The notes below the pieces were generated by a model. It made no database searches. It was not told where the DNA came from and worked only from the letters and a program-made list of their open reading frames with translations. From Haloplanus natans DSM 17983 (GTDB lineage Archaea; Halobacteriota; Halobacteria; Halobacteriales; Haloferacaceae): a stretch of DNA of 64,000 bases. Positions 25,410 to 25,907 of this stretch are shown piece after piece. The stretch is from assembly GCF_000427685.1 (NCBI RefSeq), contig NZ_KE386573.1, positions 1,224,938-1,288,937 on the forward strand. Reading direction: 5' to 3'. Made by a program: the position numbers and the translations under genes. Numbering within the stretch: position 1 is the stretch's first letter; each line of letters starts with the position of its first letter.

Positions 25410-25568
25410 ATGCCCGAGTGCCAGAACTGTGGTGCGTTCGTCACCCGTGATTACGCCCGGGTGTTCACGCCTGACGGCGTGGACGAACCCCGCGTATGCC
25501 CCCGTTGTGAAGATATGGTCCGTGACGGTGCGGACGTCCGTGCCGCTCGCTCTCCACGAAACTCCTGA
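25410..25568 (+). CDS. 52-residue CPxCG-type zinc-finger protein
   Basis: The protein begins MPECQNCGAFVTRDYARVF and carries a second cysteine pair in RVCPRCEDMV, so one zinc is expected from the CxxC...CxxC set. Haloarchaea have many such small zinc-finger proteins; this one resembles a widely conserved type I remember as DUF7563, a name I cannot check here. A TTATGTAAAA element about 30 bases upstream suits a leaderless start. Function unknown; a role in nucleic-acid binding or regulation is usual for the class. Confidence 0.8.
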   Translation: MPECQNCGAFVTRDYARVFTPDGVDEPRVCPRCEDMVRDGADVRAARSPRNS

Positions 25569-25585: not shown

Positions 25586-25717
25586 TGGAAGGGGCGGGAT
25601 TCGAACCACGCGAAGCCGTGTGCCGACCGAGAACCGGCCGACTTCCCCGCCGGCCGCCGTCGACCTATGGGGTCGCCCGCGGTCGGCGAAGACGCTCTAC
25701 CACTGAGCCACCCTTCC
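25586..25717 (-). tRNA. tRNA-like gene with large insertion, isotype unassigned
   Basis: On the minus strand the acceptor arms GGAAGGG (25717-25711) and CCCTTCC (25593-25587) pair perfectly, followed by A as discriminator. A normal D arm follows (TGGCTCAGTGGTAGAGC), and the 3' end has a canonical T loop TTCGAAT before CCCGC. Three things are abnormal. The 132-base span is far too long, no loop with U33 and a standard anticodon stem can be drawn, and the 5' T-stem strand reads GCGTGG, which pairs only if one T is bulged out. The interior holds a perfect eight-base-pair stem (25687-25680 with 25629-25622). A TATTAG element lies about 29 bases upstream. It may be an intron-containing tRNA, a decayed tRNA or a tRNA-like small RNA. 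Confidence 0.4.
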
Positions 25718-25907
25718 AGTACACTCGTACGCCGACAAGTCACTAATACGCGTTGGTGGTGCGGCCACGACGCGTCGTACGGGCTGTTGTACGTCCGTTC
25801 GGACGGTAGCCCACGGAAGCGGCGACCGGTGAAACGCCGGTACGACCGGCCGTCTCACAGTGATTATCGTAAGTCACCACCGGTGGTTCGCCAGAACGGG
25901 TCGGCGG

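Follow-up and report, generated by a model that had tools for sequence, protein, structure and literature searches.

The locus raises the question of what is encoded by a gene that has both ends of a tRNA and a promoter-like element in front of it, and that does not fold as a normal tRNA. The window (the whole stretch of 64,000 nucleotides analysed, from Haloplanus natans DSM 17983) carries this gene on the minus strand, where the perfect acceptor stem, the standard D arm and the T loop described in the initial annotation were all located (Table 1). The Rfam tRNA model RF00005, run as a permissive search on a local stretch of 301 bases, matched exactly positions 25586-25717 with 36.9 bits (E value 1.9e-6, gathering score 29), in agreement with the 132 bases noted before, and left most of the anticodon region unaligned. 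With the family covariance model R1, a score of 75.8 bits was obtained for the window copy. The 7-bp acceptor stem is formed by 25717-25711 and 25593-25587, the T loop TTCGAAT lies at 25605-25599, and the T stem, which was said to work only with a bulged T, was found as GCG[T]GG/CCCGC. The TATTAG element placed near -29 is likewise present. No anticodon loop had been recognised, and the anticodon arm is indeed replaced by hairpins. In isolation the RNA of the window folds into the acceptor stem, the D arm and three more hairpins (z of -2.6 against shuffles). The gene was missed by ARAGORN and by the default Rfam scan, whose output for the whole window was only a tRNA-Val at 36.2 kb.

Table 1. 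Coordinates of the tRNA-like gene, its parts and its convergent neighbour in the window
Feature	Position	Strand	Details and basis
Whole tRNA-like RNA gene	25586..25717	-	132 nt; 5' end at 25717, discriminator A at 25586; RF00005 and family covariance model
TATA box TATTAG	25743..25748	-	-31 to -26 from the acceptor 5' end; AT-rich peak of the family
Acceptor stem, 5' strand GGAAGGG	25711..25717	-	identical in 108/109 distinct members (invariance somewhat overstated by member selection)
D arm GCTC-AGTGGTA-GAGC	25694..25708	-	with G15, G18, G19 and A21; family alignment
Hairpin P3	25644..25692	-	replaces the anticodon arm; minimum-energy fold and covarying pairs, 11 congeners
Hairpin P4 GTCGGCCG-GTTCT-CGGTCGGC	25622..25642	-	genus-specific second arm in variable-arm position; fold and congener covariation
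Linker GGCTTC	25612..25617	-	last C is C48, Levitt partner of G15
T-stem 5' strand GCGTGG	25606..25611	-	bulged T at 25608; six bases against five in 109/109 members
T loop TTCGAAT, T-stem 3' strand CCCGC and acceptor 3' strand CCCTTCC	25587..25605	-	covariation of pair 50-64
Convergent gene, small DUF7563 protein (PF24444)	25410..25568	+	Pfam, 57.2 bits

The distribution of the gene was determined by three kinds of search. By BLAST against 99 related genomes, full-length matches were found in ten other congeneric genomes and matches of both ends in many other genera, the relatives sharing GGAAGGGTGGCTCAGTGGTAGAGC at the 5' end and GGCTTCGCGTGGTTCGANTCCCGCCCCTTCC at the 3' end with a middle of varying length. 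When named genomes were scanned with exact patterns, 57 stretches were recovered, including those from Haloferax, Haloplanus, Halobellus, Halogeometricum, Halorientalis, Halorussus, Haladaptatus, Halomarina and Halalkalicoccus. The covariance search proposed earlier, done with a model built from the relatives (E <= 1e-6), recovered a widespread haloarchaeal family in 200 of 392 genomes and 47 of 86 genera, of which a few genomes with scores near 48-51 bits may represent background or a second type; the one match inspected, at 48.9 bits, is a true family member. Thirteen of 15 Haloferax species carry the gene, which is mostly single-copy, and the members are 79-143 nt long with no recognisable intron. 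About half of the haloarchaeal genomes, genus g14 among them, are without it, so that haloarchaea as a group can do without the gene. Outside the haloarchaeal order no score above 47 bits was obtained with the covariance model, and a spread beyond haloarchaea was rejected, the two hits from other orders that were inspected being ordinary tRNA-Ala genes.

Two copies in different neighbourhoods were seen in some genomes (loci L119/L120, L130/L131, L132/L133 and L135/L136), and one copy in Halorientalis sp. IM1011 is located on the plasmid NZ_CP019069.1. A second tRNA-like type, possibly a paralogue family, was observed at L139:2501-2588 and L213:101-185. Its acceptor stem reads GAAAGGG/CCCTTTC and its variable arm GGCC..GGCC, and its T stem has no bulge; these genes were called tRNA-His and tRNA-Arg by ARAGORN, but the anticodon arm folds without a normal loop.

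The first of the three guesses in the initial annotation was a non-canonical intron, that is, a decoding tRNA split in both the anticodon arm and the T stem by one or more bulge-helix-bulge introns. The length of the window gene and the match of RF00005 to both of its halves are in line with this reading, four other tRNAs of the same genome carry introns of 29-37 nt, and ARAGORN in pseudo mode reported Pro(CGG) with a 57-nt intron as its sole reading of the gene. However, when all single excisions were enumerated in 11 congeners, none gave a canonical cloverleaf with a perfect T stem, whereas a control tRNA carrying an artificial intron was recovered; with the bulged T strand kept, the solutions numbered from zero to seven per species and had unrelated anticodons. 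Homologues of only 79-85 nt share these ends and the bulge and carry nothing more than short hairpins, and the shortest, at 79 nt, are too short for a hidden intron. An anticodon stem of 5 bp with a 7-nt loop can be drawn in 18 of 87 short members, the anticodon not being shared. The Pro(CGG) candidate was rejected, as a normal Pro-CGG gene lies near C7:234734 and relatives are without such a reading. The GCGGG at 25680-25676, proposed to be a T-stem strand displaced by an insertion, is present as described, but nothing similar recurs in the alignment of the congeners, so its pairing with the T-stem 3' strand looks like chance. A split decoding tRNA is thus extremely improbable.

Canonical tRNAs for nearly every anticodon, Pro-CGG included, were found elsewhere in the genome; Pro-GGG and Trp genes were not located in the tRNA search of this genome, the latter probably escaping because of the known long intron of tRNA-Trp. 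The introns of tRNA-Arg(TCT) (L166:7647-7750) and tRNA-Lys(TTT) (L182:22-132) are 29 and 37 nt long, respectively, and tRNAs for Met and Gln have introns too. Eleven tRNA genes (Gln, Asp, Pro, three Ser, two Leu, Tyr, Glu and Met), several of them low-scoring, are clustered at L170:128-1611 on a secondary contig of the same genome (G000 contig C1:401628-403110), with the appearance of a virus- or plasmid-like tRNA array. ARAGORN in tmRNA mode found no tmRNA, which would have a permuted tRNA-like domain and a tag-peptide frame.

Conservation is distributed unevenly along the gene. Between the window copy and ten congeners, identity was 91-100% at the ends, 57-75% in the middle and 56-70% in the upstream flank, and the downstream 100 bases, adjoining the convergent gene, were 66-85% identical among congeners. 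U8, G18, G19, A21, C48, C56 and A58 were found in all 109 distinct members, and A14, G15, U54 and U55 in at least 107; the positions of the tRNA tertiary core (U8-A14, G15-C48, G18/G19 with U55/C56, and U54-A58) are therefore present in 107-109 of the 109, a set partly selected on acceptor and T-arm patterns, by which the invariance of these two parts is somewhat overstated. In the same 109 members the T stem always has a six-base 5' strand against a five-base 3' strand, and a canonical unbulged 5-bp T stem is absent, which marks the bulge as a conserved feature and no error. The variants GCGTGG/CCCGC, GTGGCG/CCCAC and GTGTGG/CCCAC were counted 85, 22 and 2 times, respectively; in the second, seen in family f7 (which we take to be Natrialbaceae), the bulge is shifted by one pair. 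The linker reads GGCTTC in most members and GGCCTC in most of those from f7. The discriminator base is A in 42, G in 66 and C in 1 of the 109.

The conserved parts also covary. Among 79 distinct aligned members, all four pairs of the D stem show at least one double-sided change, and at the T-stem pair 50-64 the bases are C-G 66 times and U-A 13 times with no break, the bulge being retained where C-G turns to U-A. In hairpins P3 and P4, pairs have changed on both sides among 11 congeners, and the middle region is more stable than dinucleotide shuffles (mean z of -2.9 for 108 members, -3.4 for the window copy). Constraint is strongest in the T arm, the acceptor stem and the GGCYUC-C48 strand, while the anticodon arm changes freely.

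The upstream and downstream regions of the gene were compared in the same way. In 112 upstream regions, A/T content peaks at -30 to -27 from the first base of the acceptor stem (81-95% at -30 to -28), and position -1 is a pyrimidine in 81%. By what is established for archaeal promoters, a TATA box at this distance puts the start of transcription at or near G1. A TTTT run in the first 60 nt after the gene occurs in only 24 of 107 loci, so that a clear terminator is not apparent. Synteny in relatives, which the initial annotation had suggested as a check, revealed a location that is often kept, behind sdhA, opposite a DUF7563 gene, or both. Of 130 loci, a set in which some genomes are entered twice, 62 have an sdhA homologue upstream in the same orientation, usually at a distance of 150-300 bp, and 41, the window included, have a DUF7563 gene downstream in convergent orientation. 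In family f7, 21 of 25 loci have a helicase-like ORF, named by eye, that runs divergently from the gene, and the adjacency to sdhA was lost in several lineages. These neighbourhoods, conserved yet different between families, argue for vertical descent with occasional relocation. No protein partner and no conserved functional neighbour gene pointing to a pathway was found in the loci compared.

Downstream of the gene, its 3' part (GGTTCGAATCCCGCCCCTTCC) is repeated one to three times at about 20 loci, with a spacing of about 80-130 nt (for example, L086:3115-3405, L061:2560-2820, L052:5380-5590, L023:1532-1670, L135 and L136); some of these copies are preceded by an inverted copy of the T arm (GGGATTCGAA), and usually they have the same T-arm variant as the local gene.

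Such partial copies at about 20 loci, together with the fact that tRNA 3' ends are common targets of integrases, would suit a tRNA pseudogene or a remnant of a mobile element left at its integration site. Against this stand the strong constraint on the ends and the promoter, the covariation and the synteny conserved within families, and the copies, about 80-130 nt apart, do not flank an element. A mobile or viral origin was considered and rejected, no match being found in viral contigs or phages and only one in a plasmid record. A remnant of this kind is very improbable, and the decayed tRNA, the second guess of the initial annotation, is contradicted by the constrained ends, the T-stem covariation and the TATA box at a fixed place.

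The position of many members 150-300 bp after sdhA on the same strand also recalls a t-element, a tRNA-like signal that directs the cleavage of a longer transcript by tRNase Z or RNase P. Such tRNA-like processing signals are established in Haloferax volcanii (PMC4326828, PMC4946936), where a t-element upstream of the 5S rRNA is processed by tRNase Z (PMC4326828). They resemble the present family in being tRNA-like structures without a decoding role in a haloarchaeon, but the documented one is a processing site beside 5S rRNA, whereas members of the family carry a promoter of their own and are without an obvious partner RNA. The TATA box stands at a fixed distance throughout the family, the adjacency to sdhA is not universal, the hairpins are conserved as structure, and in the window the next downstream gene (DUF7563) is convergent, so that no obvious RNA would be released. 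A t-element is accordingly quite unlikely.

The fixed ends and the fast-changing middle would suit a trans-acting regulatory sRNA, one that owes only its stability to the tRNA body and uses the variable hairpins for pairing with lineage-specific targets or with the ribosome, and a ribosome-bound sRNA of 97 nt, s194, is known in H. volcanii (PMC6104027). The middle is, however, mostly closed stem with compensatory change and leaves little single strand, and conservation is highest in the tRNA body, GGCYUC included, rather than in the loops. A regulatory sRNA is therefore unlikely, if less so than a t-element. Identity with s194, considered on account of its length, was rejected: s194 is reported to be without homologues in other haloarchaea, and its locus is near HVO_2011 (HVO_2011s2) (PMC3956466), so this species-restricted RNA at another locus is not the tRNA-like RNA, whose family is widespread.

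The family was also compared with known tRNAs. It shares the acceptor stem, the D arm, the T loop, the tertiary core and the promoter placement with canonical archaeal tRNAs, and RF00005 gives 36.9-44.1 bits in those members that match, but it differs in having no conserved anticodon, a bulged T stem, a length of 79-143 nt and an unfixed discriminator. As in the class II tRNAs (Leu and Ser), a fourth arm is found in the variable-arm position in Haladaptatus, Halorussus and family f7; unlike them, the family has no anticodon loop and a bulged T stem, and the Haloferax-like members have no variable arm. Some tRNAs with an altered body are kept from translation and serve other processes, for example, the staphylococcal tRNA-Gly used for cell-wall synthesis. 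The idea of an altered body excluding translation is shared with that tRNA, which, however, retains an anticodon and a known enzyme partner, neither of which was seen here.

A 2012 paper in Biochimie reportedly lists more predicted t-elements for H. volcanii. Leaving that list aside, no description of an anticodon-less haloarchaeal tRNA-like RNA was found in Rfam 15 or in the literature searched, which supports novelty without proving it, and the family seems not to have been described before.

From the above, we are highly confident that the locus is a conserved non-decoding tRNA-like gene. A tRNA-like RNA with another function, the third guess of the initial annotation, fits best of the three, and, as judged from the sequence comparisons, its job is probably outside normal protein coding. 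The best explanation, to which we give a probability of roughly 0.55, is a stand-alone, vertically inherited haloarchaeal RNA gene for a non-decoding tRNA mimic. For such a mimic, transcription would start from its own TATA promoter at or near G1, and the tRNA body (acceptor stem, D arm, T arm and tertiary core) would be expected to take the L shape. The 3' end would be trimmed by tRNase Z and CCA then added, and the missing anticodon together with the bulged T stem would exclude the RNA from translation. In normal tRNAs, elongation factor 1A reads the T-stem side. The acceptor stem and the T arm, together with the GGCYUC-C48 strand, form the surface read by tRNA-binding proteins, and in the simplest model this invariant half would be the working surface for a tRNA-recognising protein, to which the RNA may be bound as a carrier, scaffold or decoy. 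This mechanism, comprising 3' processing, exclusion from translation and binding of a tRNA-recognising protein, is put forward as a tentative one, its probability being well short of even. Still more speculative, and rather doubtful, is a class of possibly aminoacylated, non-decoding tRNA mimics acting outside translation as an enzyme carrier or scaffold, with the bulged T stem barring elongation factor 1A. As the discriminator varies between A, G and, rarely, C, charging by a synthetase sensitive to this base is disfavoured, and aminoacylation is not claimed.

The finding also exposes a blind spot of annotation, in which the window copy is missed by ARAGORN and the default Rfam scan and the variable hairpins mask the conservation in a simple alignment. 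Since the gene is widespread, usually single-copy and present in most Haloferax species, deletion and pull-down experiments are practical. An intact tRNA body kept without an anticodon across much of an archaeal order would mean that selection has maintained it for a non-decoding role.
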